Part shown: one piece after another, positions 6,845-64,000 of the stretch
How the letters are laid out: every line of letters begins with the position of its first letter
Position numbering within the stretch: the first letter of the stretch is position 1
Assembly: GCF_000420345.1 (NCBI RefSeq)
Contig: NZ_ATUT01000006.1
Location: forward strand, 1-64,000
DNA from: Faecalicoccus pleomorphus DSM 20574
GTDB taxonomy: Bacteria > Bacillota_I > Bacilli_A > Erysipelotrichales > Erysipelotrichaceae
DNA length: 64,000 nt
Reading direction: 5' to 3'
Notes under the pieces: generated by a model
What the model saw: only the letters and a program-made list of their open reading frames with translations
Database searches by the model: none
Told to the model about the DNA's origin: nothing
Made by a program: the position numbers and the translations under genes

Positions 6845-7552
6845 CTAGTCTTTTGAACTTCCCATTCCCAACAATTGAAGAATGTATAAGAAAATGTTGA
6901 TAAAGTCCAAATAAAGCTCTAATGCGAAATAAATGGATAACTTTTCTCTGGAAACGATTGATCCATCATTGAACGTCATGATCTTATTCATACGCTGTAT
7001 ATCCCATACCGTAATCCCGGTAAAAAGAAGCAGACCTACAAGGCACATAAAACGAGTATCCATTCCAATATGAAATATGGATAAAAGTACTTGTGAAATG
7101 ATCATGGCAATCAAACCGGTAAAACAAATTGATCCAATGCGCGACATATCTTTCTTTGTTGTTAGGCCAATAAACACTAAACAGAGAAAATAGAGGGCCG
7201 CTACCAAAAACGCAACAAAGATAACACCTTCTGAATACGCATAGAAAATGGATGTCATGCTGAAACCGAGGGTTAAAGAATACAACAGAAATAAGATTTT
7301 CATAGTGGCAGCAGACGTATTTCTTGCCAATTGTGAAGAAAATACAACAACTAGAACGATCTGCGCAATCAACAATCCAAAAGCTAAGAATGGACTACGT
7401 TCGATGATGGCTAAAAATGTACCACTTCGATACAAACCAAACGATACTGCAGCGGTCACCATCAAACCAATAGCCATCCAAAGATAGCTGTTTAATACGG
7501 ATTTTTTTACTTCATTTTGTGAATAAAACGAAGCTTCATAATCTTGATACAT
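6845..7552 (-). CDS. Bax inhibitor-1 (BI-1/YccA) family membrane protein
   Basis: The 235-residue protein has a short charged N-terminus and seven hydrophobic helices. The late sequence TGITVWDIQRMNKIM and the final helix ELYLDFINIFLYILQLLG are typical of the BI-1 family. Bacterial members (YetJ, YccA) are thought to act as pH-sensitive calcium leak channels or to interact with membrane proteases. Which applies here cannot be told. It lies 11 bases downstream of the PEPCK-like kinase gene and is probably co-transcribed with it. AGGAGATGATC precedes the ATG. Confidence 0.9.
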   Translation of the reverse strand: MYQDYEASFYSQNEVKKSVLNSYLWMAIGLMVTAAVSFGLYRSGTFLAIIERSPFLAFGLLIAQIVLVVVFSSQLARNTSAATMKILFLLYSLTLGFSMTSIFYAYSEGVIFVAFLVAALYFLCLVFIGLTTKKDMSRIGSICFTGLIAMIISQVLLSIFHIGMDTRFMCLVGLLLFTGITVWDIQRMNKIMTFNDGSIVSREKLSIYFALELYLDFINIFLYILQLLGMGSSKD

Positions 7553-7563
7553 ATGATCATCTC

Positions 7564-9258
7564 CTATTTTTTGATGAACTCAAGCAATTCTTTAGCGGCA
7601 ATATCTAAACCTTTACGATTTGCACGGTCAAATCCTAAGTGCGTATAGATTTCTCCAACAAACACGCCGTTGTCTTTCATGCACTGGAACATTTTATCAA
7701 TCAGCGGTTCACAAAGCTCCTGTTTCTGCATAGGTCCAAATGGGTTGGCAAAATACGTTGTAGAAATACCAACTTCCTGCGTTGTTCCCAATGCCATACG
7801 TTTTCCCTGCTTACAAGTTTCTTTGACATCTTCGATTGGACGTTGTTTCAAGCCATATTCATCTGTATAGTTATTGGCATACGCAAACAGATCGATAGTG
7901 TGATTGTGTACGACAACACGATATGGACTTGCCGGTACAACCATACGAGCATTCGGATTTTCCGGTCCCATGATCACAGCACGATCCATGTCACGATACG
8001 GTGTTCCTGGGTCTAAGTCATCCAATCGTACAAAGGCACCGATTTCTGTTCCCTGTCCATAAGGTACACCATCTTCAACATGAATCGTACCCATATCATC
8101 AAATACTACTTCAATATCACGGATGATATCGTGTCCAACAGCTTTCAGTGCTTCAATGGATTCTGACTTACCAGCACCGGAATCTCCCATCAACATCAAG
8201 CCTTTTCTTCTGCCATCATTTAATGTAATGTTGACAAAAGCTCCGTGGATTGGCAGCCATCCTCTTTGCATCATCGCAAGGTTATGTAATGTCAAACACA
8301 TTTTCTTCAAATATCCAAAATACTCTACACGTGGATGATCACTGATGCATCCTACCCAGATATCATTCGCTTCATCGTGATAGAACTGTGTTTCATTGCG
8401 ATCATCCGGATTTCCATAAATACAGATCAAATCCGGTTTCTGTTCTGATTCTTCGCGGCTGGCCAATTCGAATAAGTTGGCCATACTTAAAGCCGATGCA
8501 ATATATTTTGTATTGAAATATACAAAGCACAATAGTTTTCCGACTTTACATGGGAAACAGAACCATTCTTCCGGATCACCCGCAAAATATGTGATTGGGT
8601 TTGTATCCGTTTCATTGATCACGCCTTCACGCTTACTGGATTTCGGATGCAGGATCATTGGTGTACGAAGCATAACGGTATCAATCACCGGAATATTCAT
8701 TAAGGCTTCATATTGAGGATCCCATAAGTTTTTATGACGATATACCGAGAAACACGCATTTGTACCGGCCTGTGCCTGACGATACACAACATTTCTTCGA
8801 TGCATGGCACGTTCTTCAAATAAACGGTATGTGCGTAAGAACAGAGAATTGACAGCGGAATCTCTTGCGACCAAAGTATTGACACCGAAACCGTCAATAT
8901 TTTCACTGGACATCACCGCAAAACGCTGTAAATCTCGCCATGATTTATAAATTTCTTCAATGGTGTCTAACAGATGTTTTTCATCCAATGCATAGTCATT
9001 GCGAATCTCATCCATTTTAAACACCGACAACAGACGAAGGAAATGCGTAAATTCGGCAGCGGCTTCCTGCGAATCGTATTTTCCATCCTGTGTCAGATAT
9101 TTATACAGATCAACATTTTTTTCTTTTTGACTGGAAATAAAATACTGAATATAAACCTGGAATGTTTTACTTGCCAAAAACTCCTGACGATCTTTCGGAT
9201 ACGCCTTGTTGTAATTTAAAATCACCTGGTTATTGCTGATACTAATCTTTTTTTCCAT
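7564..9258 (-). CDS. PEPCK/HPr-kinase-like P-loop protein, uncharacterised
   Basis: The 564-residue protein has a P-loop GDSGAGKSES near residues 355-364, of the kind shared by PEP carboxykinase and HPr kinase. It continues into a C-terminal half with IRDIEVVFDDMGT, NARMVVPASPYRVV and GTTQEVGISTTYFANPFGP. About 350 residues upstream form an N-terminal region with no motif I recognise. It is similar in size to ATP-PEPCK, but the canonical PEPCK substrate motifs are not obvious, so I call it a PEPCK-fold kinase of unknown substrate. It leads an operon with the BI-1 gene. A 13-bp palindrome sits exactly between its -35 and -10, suggesting repressor control. AGGAGG precedes the ATG. Confidence 0.6.
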   Translation of the reverse strand: MEKKISISNNQVILNYNKAYPKDRQEFLASKTFQVYIQYFISSQKEKNVDLYKYLTQDGKYDSQEAAAEFTHFLRLLSVFKMDEIRNDYALDEKHLLDTIEEIYKSWRDLQRFAVMSSENIDGFGVNTLVARDSAVNSLFLRTYRLFEERAMHRRNVVYRQAQAGTNACFSVYRHKNLWDPQYEALMNIPVIDTVMLRTPMILHPKSSKREGVINETDTNPITYFAGDPEEWFCFPCKVGKLLCFVYFNTKYIASALSMANLFELASREESEQKPDLICIYGNPDDRNETQFYHDEANDIWVGCISDHPRVEYFGYLKKMCLTLHNLAMMQRGWLPIHGAFVNITLNDGRRKGLMLMGDSGAGKSESIEALKAVGHDIIRDIEVVFDDMGTIHVEDGVPYGQGTEIGAFVRLDDLDPGTPYRDMDRAVIMGPENPNARMVVPASPYRVVVHNHTIDLFAYANNYTDEYGLKQRPIEDVKETCKQGKRMALGTTQEVGISTTYFANPFGPMQKQELCEPLIDKMFQCMKDNGVFVGEIYTHLGFDRANRKGLDIAAKELLEFIKK

Positions 9259-9400: not shown

Positions 9401-11093
9401 ATTTTGCATAAATCGCATCAATTCTAGCTTTGATATCCTCTAAAGAGATTTCTGTTTTCTCACCGTTGGCTCTTGTGACAAATTCAACATTGCCATTTTG
9501 AATACCACGTCCAACTGTAATTCGATACGGAATACCAATCAGTTCCATATCTTTAAATTTAACTCCCGGACGCTCATTGCGGTCATCTAAGAGCACATCG
9601 TATTTTTTCGATTGACAATATTCATACAACGCATTGGCAATGGATACTTGTTGTTCATCTTTAGCGCTGACCGGTACGATTGCCAGTTTAAACGGCGCAA
9701 TTTCAGCAGGCCAAATAATGCCGGAAGCATCGTTATGCTGTTCTACGACCGCTGCCATACAACGTTCTAAGCCAATACCATAACTTCCCATCCATACCGG
9801 TTGCAGCTGATTGTTGGCATCCGTATATAACAAATTCATGGATGTTGAATATTTTGTACCCAGCTTAAAGAGGTTCCCCACTTCAATGCCATGTTGGAAC
9901 GTTAATTTCTTTCCACAAACCGGGCAGACATTGCCTTCTTTGACCTGACATAAATCCGCTGCTTTCACATAATCAAAATCCTTGATATTGACATTTTCAA
10001 TATGGTGGTCTGTCTTATTGGCTCCTACAATAAAGTTTTTCTTATGTAAAACCTGTCGATCCAGATAGACCGGACAATCAATACCGATTGGACCGGCAAA
10101 TCCTACCTTGGCATGCGTCACCTTCTCTACATCCTCAAAGGAAGCTAGCTCCATCTCGTTGGCACCCAACAGTTTTAAAACTTTCGTTTCGTTAAGCTCA
10201 CGATCGCCTGGGATACAGAACGCAACAATCTTTCCATCGACATTATAAATCAGGGTCTTAACAAAATCATTGGCTTCTTTTCCAAAGAAGGCTGCGACTT
10301 CTTCAATGGTTTTCGCATTCGGTGTCTCCATCAAATGCATTTCTTTTTCTTTTTCCTGACTTTCTTCCGTCGTATCGATGACTTCAGTAATCTCTAGATT
10401 GCTGGAAAAATCACAACCCTCACAACCTACGATAGTATCTTCGCCAATGCTGGAAATGGCCTGGTACTCTTCCGATAAAAGGCCACCCATAGCCCCTGTA
10501 TCGGCTTTAACAATCTTATATTCTAAACCTAAACGATCAAAAATGCGGCAATAAGCATCATACATCTTCTGGTAGGCTACATCCAATCCTTTTTCATCGA
10601 TGTCAAATGTATATGCATCTTTCATGATAAATTCACGAACACGGATCAATCCATAACGAGGACGTGTCTCGTCTCGATACTTTGTCTGAATCTGATACAG
10701 ATTGTATGGATAATCTTTATACGATTTTCCGTTCATACTTGCCGCAACCGCAAACAATTCTTCATGGGTTGGACCTAGTACATAACGCTTCATATACCGG
10801 TCGTTTAATGAAAACATGTTGGATCCAAACGCATCTCTTCGACCAGACTGCACATACACATCTTCCGGAATCAAAGCCGGCATCAAGAGTTCCTGTGCCC
10901 CTTTGGCATCCATTTCTTCACGAATGATGTTCTCAATCTTCGCCAATACCTTTTTCCCCATCGGCATGATCATATAAATACCGTTGGAAGTTTTTTTGAT
11001 CATTCCGGCACGTACTAACAAATTACTGGAAATACTATCTTCATCTTTTGCATTTTCACGCAATGTATAAAAGAAACTCTGACTCAATTTCAT
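9399..11093 (-). CDS. proS: Prolyl-tRNA synthetase (bacterial type)
   Basis: The 564-residue class II aminoacyl-tRNA synthetase charges tRNA-Pro. It begins MKLSQSFFYTLRENAKDEDSISSNLLVRAGMI-type sequence typical of bacterial ProRS. It has motif 2 (YRDETRPRYGLIRVREFIMKDAY), a YbaK-like editing insertion (about residues 230-380) and the motif 3 region GSYGIGLERCMAA. A longer frame exists upstream, but this ATG is the one preceded by AGAGGG and gives the family's usual length. It follows the two U32 genes by about 31 bases, so it is probably the third gene of that operon. Confidence 0.95.
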   Translation of the reverse strand: MKLSQSFFYTLRENAKDEDSISSNLLVRAGMIKKTSNGIYMIMPMGKKVLAKIENIIREEMDAKGAQELLMPALIPEDVYVQSGRRDAFGSNMFSLNDRYMKRYVLGPTHEELFAVAASMNGKSYKDYPYNLYQIQTKYRDETRPRYGLIRVREFIMKDAYTFDIDEKGLDVAYQKMYDAYCRIFDRLGLEYKIVKADTGAMGGLLSEEYQAISSIGEDTIVGCEGCDFSSNLEITEVIDTTEESQEKEKEMHLMETPNAKTIEEVAAFFGKEANDFVKTLIYNVDGKIVAFCIPGDRELNETKVLKLLGANEMELASFEDVEKVTHAKVGFAGPIGIDCPVYLDRQVLHKKNFIVGANKTDHHIENVNIKDFDYVKAADLCQVKEGNVCPVCGKKLTFQHGIEVGNLFKLGTKYSTSMNLLYTDANNQLQPVWMGSYGIGLERCMAAVVEQHNDASGIIWPAEIAPFKLAIVPVSAKDEQQVSIANALYEYCQSKKYDVLLDDRNERPGVKFKDMELIGIPYRITVGRGIQNGNVEFVTRANGEKTEISLEDIKARIDAIYAK

Positions 11094-11124
11094 GATATCC
11101 CTCTTTTCAGCTTGTTCTATTTTC

Positions 11125-12348
11125 TCATAATCCGTCTTTAGACACAACACGAATCTTACGGATCATCGCATTTTTTTCGATAGGACCTTCCCATTTGGTC
11201 TTAACGATCTGCATTGGTTGCTTACACACAGCTAAAGGTATATCATTTTCATCATAGATTTCTTTGACCTCAACCAATGTGCTTGAAATATTTGGACCAA
11301 AGATTTCTAATGTTTGATTTGGTAAGAAATGATTCTTTACCTGTAAAGTTGCGATTTGTGAAGAGGCATCATAATCAAGGACAATCGCCACATATTCTTG
11401 GGTCACCGTCTCATCATGATCTTGATACAGCTGCACCTTATAACCCGGTAATCCTTGATAAAAGCCTGGACCCGTCGGACGGTTTTCCGCCTTGGCAATT
11501 TCTCTTTTGGCATACGCCAAATCCTCTTGGGAAGCATATCCTTTTTCATAAATACGGTCGATCAAAGTACGATAACTGCGAATAACGGTTGCCAAATAAT
11601 AAGCACTTTTCATACGCCCTTCGATTTTCAAAGAAGCGACACCCATTTTAATAAAGGCTTCAATCTGATCTACGGCCTGCAAATCCTTGCTGGACATACT
11701 AAACAGATTGGTTGGATCACTTAATTCATGATCTCTGTCCATTAAATGATATTTCCACCGACAGCTTTGCGCACAGCCGCCACGATTGGCATCGCGTAAG
11801 GTCATATGATTACTCAAGACACAGCGACCGCTAAAAGAAATACACATACCACCGTGAATAAACACTTCGATTGGTAAAATATTTTTTTTACAGATGGCTT
11901 CGATCTGATCCATTTGGCATTCTCTTCCCAATACTACACGATCCATGCCCTTTTCTTTCCAAAAGGCAACCGCATTGGAGTTTGTGGAAGAATGCTGTGT
12001 TGAAATATGTACTTCATAATGACAGCCCAATTCTTTGGCCTTCATCATGATAGCCGGTGAACAGACAATGATCGCATGAACACCGATCTGATCCAGGGCC
12101 AACAAATAGTCGTCCAGACCGTGCAGGTCTTCCTCATGCGGCAGCATATTCACCGTAACATGCACATGCGCCCCTCTTTCGTTGGCAAAATCCACCAGTT
12201 CCTTCATTTCTTCCAAAGAAAAATTACTGGCACGAGATCGTAAGGAAAATTGTTTTCCTCCAATATAAACCGCATCCGCACCATATAAAATCGCAATTTT
12301 TGCCTTTTCCAGATTTCCTGCAGGAGCCAGTAATTCAATCTTATTCAT
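11125..12348 (-). CDS. U32 family peptidase / tRNA hydroxylation protein, long paralogue
   Basis: The 407-residue protein contains the U32 signature region IEVFIHGGMCISFSGRCVLSNH followed by a second cysteine cluster (RGGCAQSCRW), the residues proposed to hold an iron-sulfur cluster. The N-terminal ELLAPAGNLEKAKIAILYGADAVYIGGK is also typical. By relationship to Bacillus YrrO and E. coli TrhP it probably takes part in prephenate-dependent 5-hydroxylation of wobble uridine in tRNA. It could instead be a collagenase-type peptidase, the historical name. Its start overlaps the short U32 gene by eight bases, so the two proteins are likely made together. Confidence 0.85.
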   Translation of the reverse strand: MNKIELLAPAGNLEKAKIAILYGADAVYIGGKQFSLRSRASNFSLEEMKELVDFANERGAHVHVTVNMLPHEEDLHGLDDYLLALDQIGVHAIIVCSPAIMMKAKELGCHYEVHISTQHSSTNSNAVAFWKEKGMDRVVLGRECQMDQIEAICKKNILPIEVFIHGGMCISFSGRCVLSNHMTLRDANRGGCAQSCRWKYHLMDRDHELSDPTNLFSMSSKDLQAVDQIEAFIKMGVASLKIEGRMKSAYYLATVIRSYRTLIDRIYEKGYASQEDLAYAKREIAKAENRPTGPGFYQGLPGYKVQLYQDHDETVTQEYVAIVLDYDASSQIATLQVKNHFLPNQTLEIFGPNISSTLVEVKEIYDENDIPLAVCKQPMQIVKTKWEGPIEKNAMIRKIRVVSKDGL

Positions 12349-52436: not shown

Positions 52437-53627
52437 TCAGCCAGCAATGGAGGCATCTTCAAGGGCGGCCTCCAGGTGCTTCATGTTCATGTACTTCTTG
52501 TTGCCCCACTGGGTGCCGGCCACATGGCGCAGCCGGGCACAGACCAGCATAAGGGCGGAATTGCCGTCCGGGAAACTGCCCACCACACGGGTACGGCGGC
52601 GGATCTCCCGGTTGAGTCGTTCAATAACGTTATTGGTACGGATGCGAGTCCAGTGCTCGCTGGGAAAATCGCAGTAGGTCAGCGTCTCCTCAATGCCATC
52701 CTCTACCTTCTTGGCCGCCTCTTTCAGTTTCATGGAGCGCAGTTCTTCCACCACAGCTTTGGCCTTTTCCCGGGCTGCTTTCTTGCTTTCCTGGGCGTGG
52801 ACCGCCTTGAGCATCTTTGCCACCAGCTTCACCTTGGAGCGAGGCGTGACCGAGAATACATTGCGGTAAAAGTGGACGGTACAGCGCTGGTACTTGGCTT
52901 CGGGGAATACTTCTCCCACGGCCTCCAGCATACCAAGGCACTTGTCTCCAACAATGAGTTTCACACCGTCCAGACCTCGGCCACGCAGCCACTGGAAGAA
53001 GCTGACCCAGCTGGACTTGTCCTCCTTCATGCCCTCGGCGGCACCCAGAACCTCACGGTATCCGTCCTCATTGACCGCAATTGCCACAAGAATGGCTACG
53101 TTTTCAAATTCGCCGCCCCAGTTACGGCGCAGATAGATCCCATCCACATAGACATACGGATATCGTCCGCCTTGCAGAGGACGGTTCCGCCAATCCTCGA
53201 TGTGGACATACGCTTTCTTGTTTAACTCACTTATAGTGGAGGGAGAGACTTTGCTGCCCCAGAGGGCCTCGGTAATATCCTCCGCACGCCGAACGGATAC
53301 GCCTGCCAGGTACATCTCAATGAGGGCTTCTTCCACGCTGCTCTCCCGGCGGCGATACCGCTCAATGATGGCGGTTTCAAAGGAGATCCCCTTGAGCTTG
53401 GGCACCTTCAGGGTAACGTCCCCGGATGTAGTGGTGAGATTTCGGTTGTAGTGGCCGCTGCGATAGCCCTGACGCTGCTCATTGCGCTCGTACCGGGCCG
53501 CCTGGGTCAGCTTCTCCGCCTCGGCCTCCAGCAGTTCGTTGAGGGTTTCCTCTACGCTGCCTCGTACCAGTTCTTTGATTTGACCCTTGATTACTTCCTC
53601 GTTAAGCTGTACAATCTTTTCGGACAT
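52437..53627 (-). CDS. IS256-family transposase
   Basis: The 396-residue DDE transposase has catalytic Asp residues in YVYVDGIYLRRN and KLIVGDKCLG. The Glu lies in the C-terminal NNVIERLNREIRRRTRVVGSFP. HFYRN, also typical of the family, is present. An N-terminal zinc-finger-like/basic region binds the ends. Intact and probably active. AAAGGAG lies a short way upstream of the ATG. Confidence 0.93.
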   Translation of the reverse strand: MSEKIVQLNEEVIKGQIKELVRGSVEETLNELLEAEAEKLTQAARYERNEQRQGYRSGHYNRNLTTTSGDVTLKVPKLKGISFETAIIERYRRRESSVEEALIEMYLAGVSVRRAEDITEALWGSKVSPSTISELNKKAYVHIEDWRNRPLQGGRYPYVYVDGIYLRRNWGGEFENVAILVAIAVNEDGYREVLGAAEGMKEDKSSWVSFFQWLRGRGLDGVKLIVGDKCLGMLEAVGEVFPEAKYQRCTVHFYRNVFSVTPRSKVKLVAKMLKAVHAQESKKAAREKAKAVVEELRSMKLKEAAKKVEDGIEETLTYCDFPSEHWTRIRTNNVIERLNREIRRRTRVVGSFPDGNSALMLVCARLRHVAGTQWGNKKYMNMKHLEAALEDASIAG

Positions 53628-55785: not shown

Positions 55786-57249
55786 TCACTGATTAGACTT
55801 CTTCAGCTTTTTCAATATAGGACTCCATACCATATTTAGTAATTCGATGAGCATTTCATACCGAAATGCCAACAGCACCACCGCATATACTCCAAAGAAC
55901 ACCAGCGCCGTGATAAATAATGTTGCAAATGTGCCAACATGGAGTATTGAAGAAATCAAATAATATCCTACTGTTCCCAATATCGTTGCAATCACAACTT
56001 GCACCGTTCCCTTGGTCGAAATTGCTCCCCGAATATAATTTCGTGTAAAAAAGACCTGCACGCAGAATTGTGTAAGCTCAGCAAACAGTGTTCCAATTGC
56101 CGCACCATTTGCACCCATTTGTGGAATTAAAATGACGTTGAGAATTATATCGACCACTGCACCACAAGAGACAGAAATCGCAAACTTCCATTCTCCTCCA
56201 GTTGGTATCAGTATTTGCATTCCCGTTATATTAGAGAGGCTTGAAATTAGCATTATCGGCATTAGGATTCTCATCGGTTTTGCCGCATCTGCATATTCCG
56301 CTCCTGACAAAAAAACAACAGATGGTTTTGCCGCAAGAATAAAATACACCATCATCGGCACAGCTATCATAATAATTGTGCAATAAGATTTCTTTAGCAG
56401 TCTTTTGAACTCCTTCCAATTTTCGCCCGCGATATAAAACGAAAGTCTTGGTAGCAACACCGTCCCTACCGATGTAATAAGGGTCGTTAGTACTGTCCGG
56501 ATTTTTACCGCAGCCGAGTAAATTCCAACTTGGAAATCTCCACACATAAAGCCAAGCATTACACTATCCAAACTAGAGTATACATTAACCGCTAAATATG
56601 TCGCAAACATCGCCAATGTTGGCTTAATATGCTGCTTGCAGTCATAGTCCCCATACCATTTATATGTAATAAAGTTTCGTGAGTAGATGATGTTAAGTAT
56701 ATTACCGCCCACGTTTGCAAATACTGTTATTACAGCATATTTATAGCTGTCTGCCGGACTATGAACAAACAAAAACATTAACACTACGCCTATGAATTTA
56801 AATGCAATGGATCTCTTTGTAATATAATCATATCGTTCAATCGCCGAATACAGCCAGTTCATACCGACTACATTCAAAATCATATTCCAGCTATAAATAA
56901 ACAGAAGCTTCCACTCTTGGTGATATCTCGGCACCACAAAAATAGAAATCACCAGCGCAATACAGGCAATCGTTGTTGTGACCGCATTAATCAGCAAAAG
57001 CTCATGTACTGTCTTTGATAATTTTGTTCTATCTTCTCTAACCCTGGCACATGCCTTTATGCCATATGTCGAAAGACCCAAAGTTGCAAAAAGAGAAAAA
57101 TAAGTCAGTGATGCTGAAGCAAAATTCAGCTTTCCGTTAGTCTCTACTCCCAACACGCGGGAAATGTATGGAAATGCAATCAGAGGAAATATTATATTAG
57201 CTACTGATAGTATGCCATTGACGATAGCGTTATATTTAATGGATTTCAT
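55786..57249 (-). CDS. Wzx-type polysaccharide flippase
   Basis: The 487-residue protein has 12-14 helices, IVNGILSVANIIFPLIAFPYISRVLGVETNGKLNFA at the N-terminus, typical of the MVF/Wzx (PST) family. It would flip undecaprenyl-linked repeat units across the membrane. Its start overlaps the HAD gene stop by 14 bases. Glycan specificity cannot be told. Confidence 0.88.
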   Translation of the reverse strand: MKSIKYNAIVNGILSVANIIFPLIAFPYISRVLGVETNGKLNFASASLTYFSLFATLGLSTYGIKACARVREDRTKLSKTVHELLLINAVTTTIACIALVISIFVVPRYHQEWKLLFIYSWNMILNVVGMNWLYSAIERYDYITKRSIAFKFIGVVLMFLFVHSPADSYKYAVITVFANVGGNILNIIYSRNFITYKWYGDYDCKQHIKPTLAMFATYLAVNVYSSLDSVMLGFMCGDFQVGIYSAAVKIRTVLTTLITSVGTVLLPRLSFYIAGENWKEFKRLLKKSYCTIIMIAVPMMVYFILAAKPSVVFLSGAEYADAAKPMRILMPIMLISSLSNITGMQILIPTGGEWKFAISVSCGAVVDIILNVILIPQMGANGAAIGTLFAELTQFCVQVFFTRNYIRGAISTKGTVQVVIATILGTVGYYLISSILHVGTFATLFITALVFFGVYAVVLLAFRYEMLIELLNMVWSPILKKLKKSNQ

Positions 57250-58990
57250 CTAATTTCTTGCTCCAGTTAAACTCGTTTCTCAACAATCTTGTTTGAATTA
57301 GTTTTACAATTTTCGCCAGCAAAGGTATGCTCCACTTCAAATGTACTTTTTCACAGTACATCTCATACATCCTAAAATAAGCTATAAGACTTGCTTTATT
57401 TAATTTCAGCCATACCAGTTGTGACTTGATGCTGTTCTTTTTCTTTTGCACATTTGCATAAACATGTTTATCCTTTGCTTCATACTTGATACGCGCTATT
57501 CTATGTTCTTTATTTTTATTCAGCATCATGTCAACATACTGTTCCGCGCAATACTCTGTAAACTCTTGAATCAAATAACCTGTTGTCCCACACAATTCCA
57601 TATATCCTTTAAAATTACATTCGATCTCATCTCTTGTTTTTCTCAGTTCCATATAAACCATCTGGGCGGACTGATTATTCTCGTATGCCGGAAGTCCTTC
57701 GTTACTATAGCCATAAACACTTCCGTGATCTGCAGTCAAAAGTTTTTCTTGTAAGAAGCTATCATATATGAAGCAATCATATGCTACTGTTTTGAATGGA
57801 TAAAAGCTAAAAATCAGCCCTCTTTTTTCGCTATTATGCGCATTTAATGCAAGTTCATTTGTCCCAATATAATAACCCACAATATTTGTTGCCGGCCACA
57901 ACGCATGCAACATATCCTGCATAGTGCCCTTCCATCCAACATCAACTAACACAATCTTTGCTGTTGACTTTTCTATTCCTTCCCGCTTTAAATACTTGTA
58001 GAAATTATTCCTTTGATTGCTATCCTCCATTACATTATTTAGTGCATATCTCGAAACACATAAATAATGAGTTTCAATCTCTGAATTTCCCTTCCACAAG
58101 AGATAATCATCAAATAACTTTTTTAAATATTTTCCTTCTCTTGAAAGAAAATATAGCTTTCTTTCTCCTTCTCTGCAAACAGTTCGGTACAATTTCTCTA
58201 CGAACAAGTATAAAACCAGTGAATAATTTGAATAAGGCTCTTGATTGCTCCTTATAATACTCTCCAACTGCTCCTTTACATAATGTTCTGTGTAGTCTAC
58301 TTGGTCATCATAATATTCTTTATAAAGAGCCATAATGCCGCATTCGTTCGGTTTTTCATAATCGGATTTTTCATTGTCTCCTATCATCACAATTTCACTT
58401 TTATTACCCGCTTTTAAAGCAACATCTTCATATATTGAGCCGTCACTTTTTCTCTTATCCAAATCCGAAGAAACAAATATCTCATCAATATATTCGGAAA
58501 TTTTATGGACTTTTAGGAATTTTTCAAAAGCACATTTAGGCAAATAAAAGTCCGATATTATCCATATAAATTTTCCTGCCTTTTTAGCTTCAATTATATT
58601 TGAAGCCATTTCTTTATCCAGAAACTGATTTTCAATTTCTATCTCAATATCACATTTTAGCGCTTCTTCTACAAAATCTATATCAGACAGTTGGTCAGGA
58701 AGGAACATTTCCGTCACTTGCATTACAGCGCGATATGTTGCTTCCCGTTTGAAATCGCAAATTTTTCGCGCATATCCTTCAGCTTTTTTTCTTGCTTCAA
58801 ACAACTGCTGCGATGAAATGTCTCTGCCCTTTGCCAAAAGACGTTCACTCAACCGTGCTGCCCACAGTCTTTTTATATTATTTTCATGTATCTTGCGATG
58901 GACGATTGTGTCGAAATAGTCCAAGCATACAATTTTTATATCCGGTCGCGCTATTATCCGGTCAAACTTTTCCTTGGAATACTCTTCCAT
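57236..58990 (-). CDS. HAD-family protein of polysaccharide clusters (COG5610-like)
   Basis: The 584-residue protein has an N-terminal HAD domain: motif I VCLDYFDTIVHR (Asp24 nucleophile, Asp27), a helical cap, IWIISDFYLPK, and motif IV MIGDNEKSDYEKP. A second domain (about residues 260-584) contains LYFLSREGKYLKKLFDDYLL and IVLVDVGWKGTMQDMLHAL. This layout matches the COG5610-like proteins regularly found in capsule and O-antigen loci. The reaction is unknown; phosphatase or phosphotransferase activity is likely. It overlaps the Wzy-like gene by 29 bases. Confidence 0.75.
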   Translation of the reverse strand: MEEYSKEKFDRIIARPDIKIVCLDYFDTIVHRKIHENNIKRLWAARLSERLLAKGRDISSQQLFEARKKAEGYARKICDFKREATYRAVMQVTEMFLPDQLSDIDFVEEALKCDIEIEIENQFLDKEMASNIIEAKKAGKFIWIISDFYLPKCAFEKFLKVHKISEYIDEIFVSSDLDKRKSDGSIYEDVALKAGNKSEIVMIGDNEKSDYEKPNECGIMALYKEYYDDQVDYTEHYVKEQLESIIRSNQEPYSNYSLVLYLFVEKLYRTVCREGERKLYFLSREGKYLKKLFDDYLLWKGNSEIETHYLCVSRYALNNVMEDSNQRNNFYKYLKREGIEKSTAKIVLVDVGWKGTMQDMLHALWPATNIVGYYIGTNELALNAHNSEKRGLIFSFYPFKTVAYDCFIYDSFLQEKLLTADHGSVYGYSNEGLPAYENNQSAQMVYMELRKTRDEIECNFKGYMELCGTTGYLIQEFTEYCAEQYVDMMLNKNKEHRIARIKYEAKDKHVYANVQKKKNSIKSQLVWLKLNKASLIAYFRMYEMYCEKVHLKWSIPLLAKIVKLIQTRLLRNEFNWSKKLDEIH

Positions 58991-60215
58991 TATTTTTTTC
59001 CTTTCTATTTATCCATCCAATCAATAGTGCCCATGTCAAAAATGCCCCTTGTTGTATAGGGCCTCTGACTACATAGGTATTCGCCACTGCAGCAACTGAA
59101 ATCGCCACCAAAATATTGGAATACACCTTATCTGCTCTATGTTTGACCATGTACAATCCCTTTTTGGCATTTCCCATAAAGAGCCAAAGTAGTGCGGCCA
59201 CACCAATTATACCGCCCTTTATAAGCATTGTATAAAACCCATTGTGTAGCAACGGAATTTCGTTTCCATCAACAACGCCAGCCCATGAATATGGCACATA
59301 CTGAATTTCCACACCTTTTCCCATACCTTCTCCAAATAGCTGTGAGATTACCCATTCACCTTTCCATTGTTCCTTGGCTGATTGGATTTCATATGCTCTC
59401 CAGTTATTCATCGCACTTCCAACAGATGTGATTTTCTGCGACGAGTCCACCTCATCAAAGGAATTCAAAACCTTATCCATCAGCGGAGATTTTATGCTGT
59501 CTGGCATTATATAAAAAACCACCACAAGCGCGACCGTTATTGAAAAGAATAGCTTGACAACTTTTTTTATCTTCGTTTGGTTCTCTGCCTCTCTGCCCTC
59601 CATAAATAGCAGTACTGTAAAAATGATCATCGGCTGGAGAATCGCAATGCGCCCTAAAGACAAAACTACATTGAGCGTCATTAACACAACTATCATGCGG
59701 TCTATTTTTTCCCCCACATAAACTTCCTTGTGCAAAAAGACGCATATGGCTGAAATCGGCAAAATAAACCCAAGATCGTAAACATTAAGACCAAATACTA
59801 AGCGCAAATTGTTAAAATCCAACGAGCCTTTTCCAATAAAAAACAAAAAATTCTTTAATGTTATAAATGTTCCATAAAGAAAAATCGTCTTTTTAATATC
59901 CATTTCCGGATTCTGTGCTGACTCACTCGCTCCAATAAAAATCCACAAAACCGTTGGCAAAATGTAATACAAATCCCGAATCACATTTCTTGTTGTGTAC
60001 AGGAAGAATCCAACAAGTGTCGTATACGCAATAACACAAACATATAGTCTCAATCCCGGAACTCTTGGGAAAACAACCTTTCCCTTCAATTTTATTACAA
60101 GAAGAAAATAGTAACAAATTGAAAGAATGAAAAACTGTGTCGGTGACAAAAAAGTCCCTGCCATCATTATAAGTAACATCTTTTTACATATCTTTTGATT
60201 GCCTTTCTCCATCAT
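58962..60215 (-). CDS. Wzy-like O-antigen/capsule polymerase
   Basis: The 417-residue protein has 11-12 predicted helices and a large extracellular loop in the second half. That loop holds HNGFYTMLIKGGIIGVAALLWLF, a feature of O-antigen polymerases/ligases. It would polymerise flipped repeat units. Sequence is divergent, as usual for Wzy, so the name rests on topology and context (flanked by Wzx, glycosyltransferases and acyltransferases). It overlaps the frameshifted acyltransferase gene by 32 bases. Confidence 0.75.
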   Translation of the reverse strand: MMEKGNQKICKKMLLIMMAGTFLSPTQFFILSICYYFLLVIKLKGKVVFPRVPGLRLYVCVIAYTTLVGFFLYTTRNVIRDLYYILPTVLWIFIGASESAQNPEMDIKKTIFLYGTFITLKNFLFFIGKGSLDFNNLRLVFGLNVYDLGFILPISAICVFLHKEVYVGEKIDRMIVVLMTLNVVLSLGRIAILQPMIIFTVLLFMEGREAENQTKIKKVVKLFFSITVALVVVFYIMPDSIKSPLMDKVLNSFDEVDSSQKITSVGSAMNNWRAYEIQSAKEQWKGEWVISQLFGEGMGKGVEIQYVPYSWAGVVDGNEIPLLHNGFYTMLIKGGIIGVAALLWLFMGNAKKGLYMVKHRADKVYSNILVAISVAAVANTYVVRGPIQQGAFLTWALLIGWINRKEKNNGRVFQGKV

Positions 60216-61270
60216 ATCTCCTCATTTTCAAGCGCTGTGTCAAAGCGTCTCTTCCCTTTATAATTGTCAATGGGATCAAAATTCCGCATAAAAAATAAAT
60301 CGCTTTCCATCCAAAATTTTCTTCTTCGGTTACGCCATACATTTCCAACCAATTTATGTTTCTTCCCTGAAAAATGATTTGAAGTATATTGCCAACTTTA
60401 AAGCCTAAATATTGTGTTCCCAATACAAACATTGTGTGTTGCCCAATATAGACAAAACATCTTTTCAGTTTACTGGTGTAATTATCAACAAGCTGTGCCA
60501 TATCCAACGTTAGAATAATTCCTGCACATCCGGCTGGAAGGATAATCCACGAAAATCGTGGCCAATCTGCCCCCCCGAATTCCAATTATTAATATACCTA
60601 TTGACAAAGCAGCCGTAATCACCGTTTCTTTTTTGTTCTCTATATTTCCCTTTTGCGGTTCCAGATAGGTATGTGTCATATACCCAAGATGATACCAAAA
60701 AAGTAGCACAAGTGCTCTATTCAGCATTCTTGGCAAATCAATCGTTGAAAAACCAAGTAGCATTAAGCAGACGCATACAATCATCACATATATATTGGCT
60801 TTGTTTTCATCTATCACGTATTTACTTATGCCAAAGCGAATACAGGCGTATAAAATCGTAAATTCCAGCATTGCAATCAAATACCACATCGGTCCCGGAA
60901 GACTTTCTCCGCCACCCATTGTCGCAATTGCGATGATTTGATGTACAAAGTCTTTTCCATTGTAATATTTCTGATTACTAAGCTCTCCATAAATATGAAT
61001 TTTATAAAGCAAATTATGCAGCAACAAAAAAACAAAATTATATGTGAGAAAAGGAACATAGCATCCCTTGATTTTCTTTTTTGTATGATTCCAAACTTGA
61101 TTTAATTCCGTATTATATTTTTCACGGTATAACAATCCGGACAGAAATGCAAACAGCGGCATGTGAAACTGTGTCCATACACCACTCAGTATTTGAGCAT
61201 GAAACAGAACAACAATTGTCATTCCCAGTCCTTTTGCAATATCCAGCTGTGAGTTTCTCTCCTTTATCAT
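60184..61270 (-). pseudogene. Acyltransferase family 3 gene frameshifted at a G7 run (possible phase-variable gene)
   Basis: The first part (from the ATG at 61270) reads MIKERNSQLDIAKGLGMTIVVLFHAQ with the catalytic-type His and FHMPLFAFLSGLLYREKY. It continues in frame to ILIIGIRGG. There the frame is lost at GGGGGGG (minus strand, 60576-60570). The remaining protein (GGADWPRFSWIILPAGCAG to the end near 60184) reads on in another frame. With six or nine G the parts join into about 361 residues, the family's size. The single lesion in a homopolymer, in a surface-polysaccharide gene, fits phase variation. A sequencing error is the main alternative. The start overlaps the GT2 stop (ATGA). Confidence 0.8.
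60570..60576 (-). repeat. Homopolymer G7 at the acyltransferase frameshift
   Basis: Seven consecutive C on the plus strand, seven G in the coding strand. Length seven leaves the gene out of frame; six or nine restores it. Confidence 0.85.
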
Positions 61271-62136
61271 TTCATCTGCTTCTCCCATAATTTATACTGC
61301 AGGTTTCTTGAAAACATTGCCATTTTTATCTGAAAAGAATTATAGCCACTGTACTTTTGAATATAATACAATCTACTTTTCAAAAAAATCTGCATTTTAC
61401 TTGCGCTATTTCCCGGTTTTTTATGGTTATAATGTTCATGGTTGGCCGTCACTTCATGAATATAAAGTTCTTTGTATCCGTTATTCACTACACTCTTTGC
61501 GAGAATCGGTTCCTCACAGTACATAAAAACAGTTTCATCCAAATAGTTTGCCTTTTCCACATATTCTCTGGAGATAAAAAAGCAGCATCCACTTACTTTC
61601 TCGCAATATCCCGTCTTATCCTCAGCGCGATAGCCATCCCACATACCAAGTTTTTGTTTTACCATCTCCAATGGCCAAAAGATCTCCTCAAATGGTGTCA
61701 CTTCCCTCATTGGATTCTGCTTTTCTCCCGATGGCAGTCTGATGTCTGTTCCCACAACGGCTGCATCTGGCCATTTTTCAATTTGTGCCATCACATAAGA
61801 AACATATTCCGGATCTCTTAGTTCGACATCTGGATTGATGACAATCATCCAGTCAGCATCACACTTGACAGCCTCACGAAGCCCTACGTTATTACCAGCA
61901 GAGAATCCTCGATTCTCATTATTGAAAATCAGCTGAGCACCTGTCGCACATTCAATATTTTTCAGTGCAACTTTCTCATTAGGATCAGGAGATGCGTTAT
62001 CCACGATAATGGTGGTCAAATTCTGATATGTCTGCTTTTGAAGATACGCTACACATTTTTGGCAGTCGCCGCTTGAATTATAATTCAATATGACTGCTGT
62101 AACCTTTCGATTTTCACTGTTTCTACTATTTTTCAT
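61267..62136 (-). CDS. GT2 family glycosyltransferase (rhamnosyltransferase-like)
   Basis: The 289-residue enzyme has the GT-A fold: VTAVILNYNSSGDCQKCVAYLQKQ, TIIVDNASPDPNE, GFSAGNNVGLREAV and the DxD-like WMIVINPDVELRDPEYV. The C-terminal membrane-proximal helices are short. It transfers an activated sugar to a lipid-linked acceptor; the rhamnosyltransferase resemblance is general. It overlaps the upstream kinase gene and the downstream acyltransferase by four bases each. Confidence 0.9.
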   Translation of the reverse strand: MKNSRNSENRKVTAVILNYNSSGDCQKCVAYLQKQTYQNLTTIIVDNASPDPNEKVALKNIECATGAQLIFNNENRGFSAGNNVGLREAVKCDADWMIVINPDVELRDPEYVSYVMAQIEKWPDAAVVGTDIRLPSGEKQNPMREVTPFEEIFWPLEMVKQKLGMWDGYRAEDKTGYCEKVSGCCFFISREYVEKANYLDETVFMYCEEPILAKSVVNNGYKELYIHEVTANHEHYNHKKPGNSASKMQIFLKSRLYYIQKYSGYNSFQIKMAMFSRNLQYKLWEKQMK

Positions 62137-63224
62137 AATCCTTGTAGTCCTTGCTTAAGCTGATATAAAATTTGGGCTTTTTGATTTGCGATTTTAATAT
62201 CGTCACAGCATCCACGCATTATATAAAGCGAAATGTTATCAATCAAATACATTTTATACTCTTCTATGCAACTCTTGTACTTTTTAAGAAAGTCCGCTGC
62301 TATTTCATCGGCAGACATTCTTTTCTCATATATTGCCGTTTGTGTATAGAAATGCCATCTATCAAGGCATCTTGGCGCATGCCTATGTGCATATTCAAAA
62401 TCAAACACAAAAAGATGTTGATTCACCATACAAGTATTCCATGGTGTAAAGTCCCGATGACAAACTCCCCATAGTACCTGCTGATTTTTATACTCTTGTA
62501 GGATTGCATTTGCTGTTTTTAAAACGCAATTACGGTACTCAGCGCTCAACTCATCTACATTATCTATAATGAAAACTAATGATTTGTAAAAATCTGTTTT
62601 CTCAAATGCAATGTGCTCTCTTGTTTTATCGTACATTTCCTGAAGGAAGTGTTCGTGTTCCTTTCCAAACTCATGAATTGTTTTTGAACCCGGCTTTTTT
62701 TTAGTTGTCTGTACAAACGCTCTCTCATTATCATTAAGTAAAAAAATTCCTTTACATTGCGGAACATTTTCCACATTGCATTGTTTAAGTACATTTAGGA
62801 TATTTTCTTCATTTTGAAAGAGATTAAAAACTCTATTGGAAGTGCCAATTTTGCAGTATCCACATATTTTGTCTCCATCAAATATTTGCACTGTTACTTT
62901 TTGATCCGTTGATGGAGTACCCCAAAAAACAGAAACTTCATATTTGTCATACAACGCCTTTAGCAAATCCTGAAACGGATCTGAAAATATCAAGTCACCC
63001 GGTATACTTTCCGGAACGATTCTACTGCCGAACATTTTAGACAATACCGGCATTCCATATTTTAATATTTTTCCTTTTGCTCCAGAAGGCTCATAGATTT
63101 CAAGCCCAACTCTCATATTTTCAACCGGAATCGACCATTCTTTTCCATCATGATTAGAAAAAGTGATATACCGATATCCAACATTCGATTGAGATACTTT
63201 GATACTCTTTATGTTATTGTGCAT
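62133..63224 (-). CDS. APH/choline-kinase-like phosphotransferase
   Basis: The 363-residue protein has the Brenner-type motif VCHRDFTPWNTCMV (about residues 253-267) and the metal-binding LFVFDFEYAHR, the kinase core of aminoglycoside phosphotransferases and choline kinases. The N-terminal half is less conserved. In a polysaccharide operon it may phosphorylate a sugar or polyol used in the repeat unit; that is inference. It overlaps both neighbours. Confidence 0.75.
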   Translation of the reverse strand: MHNNIKSIKVSQSNVGYRYITFSNHDGKEWSIPVENMRVGLEIYEPSGAKGKILKYGMPVLSKMFGSRIVPESIPGDLIFSDPFQDLLKALYDKYEVSVFWGTPSTDQKVTVQIFDGDKICGYCKIGTSNRVFNLFQNEENILNVLKQCNVENVPQCKGIFLLNDNERAFVQTTKKKPGSKTIHEFGKEHEHFLQEMYDKTREHIAFEKTDFYKSLVFIIDNVDELSAEYRNCVLKTANAILQEYKNQQVLWGVCHRDFTPWNTCMVNQHLFVFDFEYAHRHAPRCLDRWHFYTQTAIYEKRMSADEIAADFLKKYKSCIEEYKMYLIDNISLYIMRGCCDDIKIANQKAQILYQLKQGLQGL

Positions 63225-64000
63225 TTTTGTTTTCCAAAGCCTTTACAATTTCATCTCTAATGTTCTTTCCCTTAATTTCCCATGTGATTTTTTGTCCTTT
63301 CTCAACCATGGCACGGCTCATTTTTTGCCGAATCTCCGTACTCTTCAGGGAAATCATACCCTCTGCAAGTTGATGGATCAATTCATCTCTTCCTGCATGA
63401 TTCAAAATTATAGCGCACTCTGTATCAAAGTTTCTCGTGTATCCGCCAGTGTCGATACAAAGCAACGGTTTGCCCCACTTCATGCAATCAAATGCATTTG
63501 TAACTCCGCCCTCTTTTAAGCACGCATTCAGAACAGCATCGCAATTTTCCATTTCGCTTTGATACTCACTCATCGAAATCTGACCTATTAAAGTTATTTT
63601 GTCGTCTAATCCTTTTTTCTTTATCAGCATCTCCAAATGTTTCTTCTCTGCACCCTCACCGATAATTTTCATCGTAACATTCGACAGTTCCTTTTCAGCA
63701 ATCGAAAAAGCCTCCACCAAGAGATCAAAGCCACGCCATCCATCCAAACGGCCCACCGTAATATATGTAAGCCCCTCCGATTCATCCCGCGCCTTCGGTT
63801 CAAAATATGTTGGTGCACATTCCATTGCAACATCCGTAAAAAGTATAGCTTTATTACGATATTTTTCAGGAATCATTGCCATTGTTGAATTAGCCTTGCA
63901 AAAAATCAAATCAGCATTTTCACATTTCTTATGAAAGGATGGATTTATGGTCATACTTGATACAACAATCCTTCGAACAGCTTCAAGCATTCTGTGTTTC
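63214..64000 (-). CDS. GT4 family glycosyltransferase, 5' end beyond the window
   Basis: At least 262 residues are visible (frame open to the right edge). They include the GT-B C-terminal domain: YITVGRLDGWRGFDLLVEAFSIAEKE, MKIIGEGAEKKHLEML, KITLIGQISMSEYQSEMENCDAVLNAC and the donor-binding EGGVTNAFDCMKWGKPLLCID (an EX7E variant, EGGVTNAFD). The first visible Met is not necessarily the start, since the frame is open further. It is the upstream-most visible gene of the operon and overlaps the kinase gene by 11 bases. Confidence 0.88.
   Translation of the reverse strand, partial: KHRMLEAVRRIVVSSMTINPSFHKKCENADLIFCKANSTMAMIPEKYRNKAILFTDVAMECAPTYFEPKARDESEGLTYITVGRLDGWRGFDLLVEAFSIAEKELSNVTMKIIGEGAEKKHLEMLIKKKGLDDKITLIGQISMSEYQSEMENCDAVLNACLKEGGVTNAFDCMKWGKPLLCIDTGGYTRNFDTECAIILNHAGRDELIHQLAEGMISLKSTEIRQKMSRAMVEKGQKITWEIKGKNIRDEIVKALENKNAQ

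Follow-up and report, generated by a model that had tools for sequence, protein, structure and literature searches.

A G7 tract as a candidate slipped-strand switch in an O-acyltransferase gene of a surface-polysaccharide cluster in Faecalicoccus pleomorphus

An O-acyltransferase gene in a surface-polysaccharide cluster of Faecalicoccus pleomorphus DSM 20574 is divided between two reading frames, most probably at a run of seven G. We think that this run is probably a slipped-strand switch, one of a few candidate G-tracts in the genome. The argument draws mostly on evidence from outside the window (the 64-kb stretch of DNA analysed here); G7 taken alone is weak evidence. Phase variation had been proposed for this gene from its letters alone, and that proposal gains support from G9 tracts in the same cluster, from tracts in promoter spacers, from a difference in tract length between sister species and from a relative, G077, with tracts in the same types of gene. 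It is from these observations together that we infer switching.

Results

The focal gene encodes an Acyl_transf_3 O-acyltransferase in two frames (Table 1). The tract is as the sequence-only reading described it, C7 on the plus strand and G7 on the coding strand, and the accompanying arithmetic is right: six or nine G would restore the frame. No other G/C run in the window is longer than 5. As assembled, the gene is out of frame, and a stop in the wrong frame follows soon after G7. The N-terminal frame matches positions 2–233 of the 326-position PF01757 profile with 74.2 bits against a curated cut-off of 31; the remaining third comes from the second frame, and the two frames together supply the full domain. 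The C-terminal frame alone has no Pfam match. It nevertheless runs for 133 codons without a stop and, with an X placed at the junction, it continues the protein in alignment with four full-length homologues (27–31% identical over the N-terminal part), including their last hydrophobic block.

The same reading held that the two frames part exactly at the tract. G7 is the most probable site of the indel, because every other run in the zone where both frames are open has at most 4 bases; "exactly" claims more than the frames can give, since the shift must fall somewhere within those 98 nt. Only the focal gene, among five Acyl_transf_3 matches in the genome, stops mid-domain. Like the other tracts described below, G7 is placed where a change of length alters either a frame or a promoter spacing. 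An argument from rare codons was set aside as suggestive but weak (CGG, 12%, and GGG, 15%, are uncommon in the cluster).

The nearest homologues of the focal acyltransferase are 25–31% identical. A close homologue was found neither by DNA searches of plasmids and 97 related genomes nor by protein searches covering 315 genomes of the order, genome contigs and 392 genomes of the phylum. Three other short Acyl_transf_3 genes occur in relatives. One of these (L182) is at a contig end; the other two (L183 and L184) lie in interior contig sequence and have no long G-tract, so that truncation of Acyl_transf_3 genes also occurs without G-tracts. A further Acyl_transf_3 gene with an in-frame G8, in genome G063, was rejected as a clean parallel because it is also cut short elsewhere.

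The gene is embedded in a glycan cluster that runs on along the contig past the window, first to an EpsC-like acetyltransferase and then to a LoaP-like antiterminator. The second, intact acyltransferase claimed for this operon does exist (Table 1). At the downstream edge of the cluster, a 396-aa ORF (52437-53627, minus strand) resembles an IS256-type transposase, as judged by its sequence alone.

Table 1. Features of the focal gene, its cluster and the G-tracts of the genome. Positions without a prefix are those of the window.
Feature	Position	Strand	Remarks
Intact second Acyl_transf_3 gene, 328 aa	54771..55757	-	PF01757 E 1.6e-32; weak NolL-like match
Membrane protein ORF, 487 aa, probably Wzx-type flippase	55786..57249	-	judged by sequence alone
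Wzy/ligase-like membrane protein, directly downstream of acyltransferase	58962..60215	-	PF04932 E 1.8e-7, just under cut-off
Whole Acyl_transf_3 gene, two frames	61288-60184	-	
C-terminal frame of same gene	60184..60585	-	aligns to C-terminal third of homologues
N-terminal frame, Acyl_transf_3 O-acyltransferase, 267 aa as assembled	60485..61288	-	PF01757 E 1.3e-20
Zone with both frames open, 98 nt, must contain frameshift	60488..60585	-	
G7 homopolymer (C7 on +), candidate slippage tract	60570..60576	-	
Family 2 glycosyltransferase directly upstream, overlaps acyltransferase start	61267..62136	-	PF00535
Cluster ORF, 363 aa	62133..63224	-	
Group 1 glycosyltransferase, cut by window end	63214..64000	-	
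G9 in hexapeptide acetyltransferase	C6:69175-69183		PF00132; NCBIfam EpsC E 4e-27, below cut-off
Cps2T-like rhamnosyltransferase (DUF1972), two frames split at A7	L022:9211-10454 = C6:69211-70454	-	
Group 4 glycosyltransferase truncated to 157 aa, clearly broken	L022:13564-14037	-	ahead of rhamnose genes
G9 (C6:76709) in promoter TTGACA-18 bp-TAAAAT	C6:76703-76732		ahead of LoaP-like gene
G7 in promoter TTGACA-17 bp-TACTAT	C12		ahead of protein with signal-peptide-like start, at contig end
G9 in ABC transporter promoter	C11		
G7, in frame			2-hydroxyacyl-CoA dehydratase activator-like ORF (assigned by sequence alone)

The genome (a 1.99-Mb draft in 47 contigs) contains 19 G/C runs of length 6, three of length 7, none of length 8 and three of length 9. 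Three G7 are about what the tail of the run-length distribution predicts, and the length of G7 alone is therefore not beyond chance. The three G9, by contrast with that tail, are a clear excess. Half of the six runs of at least 7 belong to this single glycan cluster, where they are spread over no more than 16 kb. The G9 at C6:69175 lies about 30 nt after the ATG and puts an EpsC/CysE-like acetyltransferase out of frame. The next stands in the promoter that precedes an antiterminator gene of the NusG family, whose nearest match is LoaP (E 1e-26, below the cut-off); downstream of this gene come the priming sugar transferase and then the remaining cluster genes. An Rfam scan of the LoaP leader returned nothing credible. 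Of the runs elsewhere in the genome, two are in promoters and the last is an in-frame G7 in an unrelated enzyme gene; we rejected this last run as a switch and take it as probably due to chance, so chance G7 runs do occur in this genome. A search of the same genome for promoters with G5–G6 spacers found TTGACA only at the two sites already known, and the other hits look like chance.

The promoter tract of the ABC transporter is the one place at which a difference in tract length was observed. It has 9 G here and 9 and 8 G in two other species of the same genus, in which the flanking boxes and the gene start are kept.

In a polysaccharide cluster of relative G077, which belongs to another family in the same order, G8 runs interrupt two genes: one for an Acyl_transf_3 protein, which is split, and one for a hexapeptide acetyltransferase, which is out of frame. 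A different contig of that genome has a second copy of each, the Acyl_transf_3 gene with a G10 and the acetyltransferase gene with a G8, both in frame. G-tracts, broken or in frame, are thus found in G077 in the same two types of enzyme that are frameshifted here. Among relatives, G-tracts within genes were also seen in glycosyltransferases, one more hexapeptide acetyltransferase, a TupA-like protein, a DNA methylase and proteins of surface type. An N6/N4 DNA methylase gene (genome G005, L146:1063-1899) has an in-frame G9 and is a candidate phase-variable methylase. Three glycan-cluster genes of G077 (L115:3160-4347, 7475-8572, 9952-11346, minus strand) have G8–G9 near their 3' ends, not their starts.

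Poly-G promoter spacers recur across the lineage. A loose spacer pattern matched 68 of the 315 genomes of the order. When 143 tracts of at least 8 G were gathered from 97 genomes regardless of promoters, 11 of them had a promoter score of at least 11 of 12, against a mean of 0.09 with shuffled flanks. A strict pattern applied to 392 genomes found 88 sites in 36 genomes and a single one for the reversed control. Among the 75 sites listed, TTGACA is present in 70 and a perfect TATAAT in 31, though the pattern required less; the spacers peak at 18–19 and the tracts at 9–10. By a simple rule, 20 of 36 first downstream genes look secreted, as compared with 14 of 111 ORFs from the F. pleomorphus genome and 19 of 88 neighbours at the same loci (p=7e-7, an optimistic value because the 36 genes include several homologous pairs). 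Named downstream products include a polysaccharide biosynthesis protein, a PTS permease, a SIS-domain protein and an ABC transporter.

Discussion

We propose that slippage in replication would change the tract by one or more G at a time and bring the last third of the acyltransferase into or out of frame, so that the glycan would probably be O-acetylated in some cells and unmodified in others. The G9 of the EpsC-like acetyltransferase, now out of frame, would be a second candidate switch in the cluster. At the promoter of the LoaP-like gene, a change in G9 would shift the spacing of the boxes and with it the transcript level, and is expected to tune the operon; the tracts in the promoters of the secreted protein and the ABC transporter are further candidate switches. 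The outcome would be a population mixed in both glycan acetylation and operon output. We infer, too, a useful rate of switching at G7, acetylation of the polymer by this enzyme and a relevance of the switch to phage or to host antibody.

The serious rival is ordinary decay, which we judge unlikely on balance: a recent and irreversible one-base indel in the G run, as part of the erosion of a laterally acquired cluster. The cluster has two other broken genes, the rhamnosyltransferase split at A7 and the truncated group 4 glycosyltransferase, and transposase-like ORFs are found both within the window and close to the head of the cluster. The intact second acyltransferase could have rendered the focal one dispensable, some short Acyl_transf_3 genes of relatives lack a G-tract, and seven G is short for a fast switch. 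Yet we found no damage in either frame of the focal gene apart from the frameshift itself. Moreover, the genes of the cluster contain just two G/C runs of at least 7, and these are the sites at which the two out-of-frame acetyltransferases are broken; G077 has G-tracts in the same two types of gene, in both states.

An assembly or consensus error, by which the true tract would differ in length and the gene would simply be intact, seems to us improbable. The assembly is a draft and G-tracts are hard to sequence; indeed, Penno et al. describe read artefacts at G-tracts and a reference length that disagreed with the culture (PMC9187656). However, 22 A/T runs of 7–8 in the window sit inside intact ORFs, so homopolymer errors are not general here and an error at G7 is correspondingly less likely, and frameshifts occur at the same types of gene in independent genomes.

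Least probable is that the two frames are joined in expression, by ribosomal frameshifting or RNA polymerase slippage, and the gene is always partly on: one-base runs are slippery for both ribosome and RNA polymerase, and the A7 of the rhamnosyltransferase needs a -1 shift, which makes expression of that gene by slippage or frameshifting conceivable, but G7 and the EpsC-like G9 both need +1 rather than the common -1, the C-terminal frame begins with a TTG that immediately follows a stop and for which inspection showed no ribosome-binding site, and the promoter-spacer tracts would be left unexplained.

Slipped-strand switching at G7, the reading that we prefer, has demonstrated counterparts. 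One is the sortase-dependent pili of Bifidobacterium breve, for which phase variation through intragenic G-tracts has been demonstrated, with mixed tract lengths within one culture and with promoter-spacer G-tracts also mentioned (PMC9187656). Both cases concern a Gram-positive gut commensal, a G-tract within coding sequence and a surface structure. The B. breve tracts are longer (about G11–12), lie in pilus genes and belong to another phylum, in which switching was demonstrated.

For the promoter tracts the parallel is porA of Neisseria meningitidis, where poly-G lies between -35 and -10 and its spacing alters the transcript level (PMC3639595). The tract of the LoaP-like gene and those across the relatives share this promoter architecture. 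In our genome a G-tract between -35 and -10 at a spacing of about 17 bp is found in the LoaP-like and secreted-protein promoters, not at the focal gene. Unlike these, porA encodes a Gram-negative outer-membrane porin, and for porA the change in expression was measured.

In its predicted function, the focal enzyme resembles NeuO, which O-acetylates the K1 capsule of E. coli, is phase-variable and alters sensitivity to phage and neutrophils (PMC13001214). The focal enzyme, too, would act on a surface polysaccharide, and NeuO varies through a repeat tract. That repeat is a heptanucleotide and NeuO is phage-encoded, whereas the tract here is a homopolymer and the protein belongs to the Acyl_transf_3 membrane family.

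A study of the Campylobacter phasome used a cut-off of 7 G for poly-G/C tracts (PMC6321876), which G7 barely reaches. As in Campylobacter, there are several poly-G loci per genome at a threshold of at least 7 G. The phylum is a different one and here tracts in promoter spacers are about as prominent as those within genes.

Phase variation by G-tracts is of a known kind, and it is apparently undescribed in this lineage. A limited search of the open-access literature found no report for Erysipelotrichales, and the words Firmicutes, Bacillota and poly-G are absent from a recent phase-variation review. What specialists might not expect is the promoter signature in its wider distribution. Switches in surface glycans, O-acetylation among them, can decide whether a cell is recognized by phage and antibody. 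If switching is shown here, phase variation would extend beyond the mostly studied pathogens to ordinary Erysipelotrichaceae, and it would account for strain heterogeneity that assemblies hide. The signature TTGACA-N-G(8-12)-TATAAT can be used on existing metagenome reads.

We lean slightly towards a broad and undescribed poly-G trait that Erysipelotrichales would share with further lineages in their class and that follows a standard design, in which consensus promoters with spacers of 8–12 G precede genes for secreted proteins, capsule and transporters and further tracts lie in acetyltransferases and glycosyltransferases. In the present genome it would act at two levels, the antiterminator promoter tuning the operon and the other tracts switching single O-acetylations.

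One genome of the same class (G596) has, in roughly 1 Mb, 13 promoters with G-tracts that resemble one another, and G005 has four that are near-identical; both look like multigene sets under one type of switch. In G093, four short ORFs that begin MANI.R (L117:1082-3281, minus strand) have a G9 near or just past each end, and this array is possibly a small phase-variable protein family.
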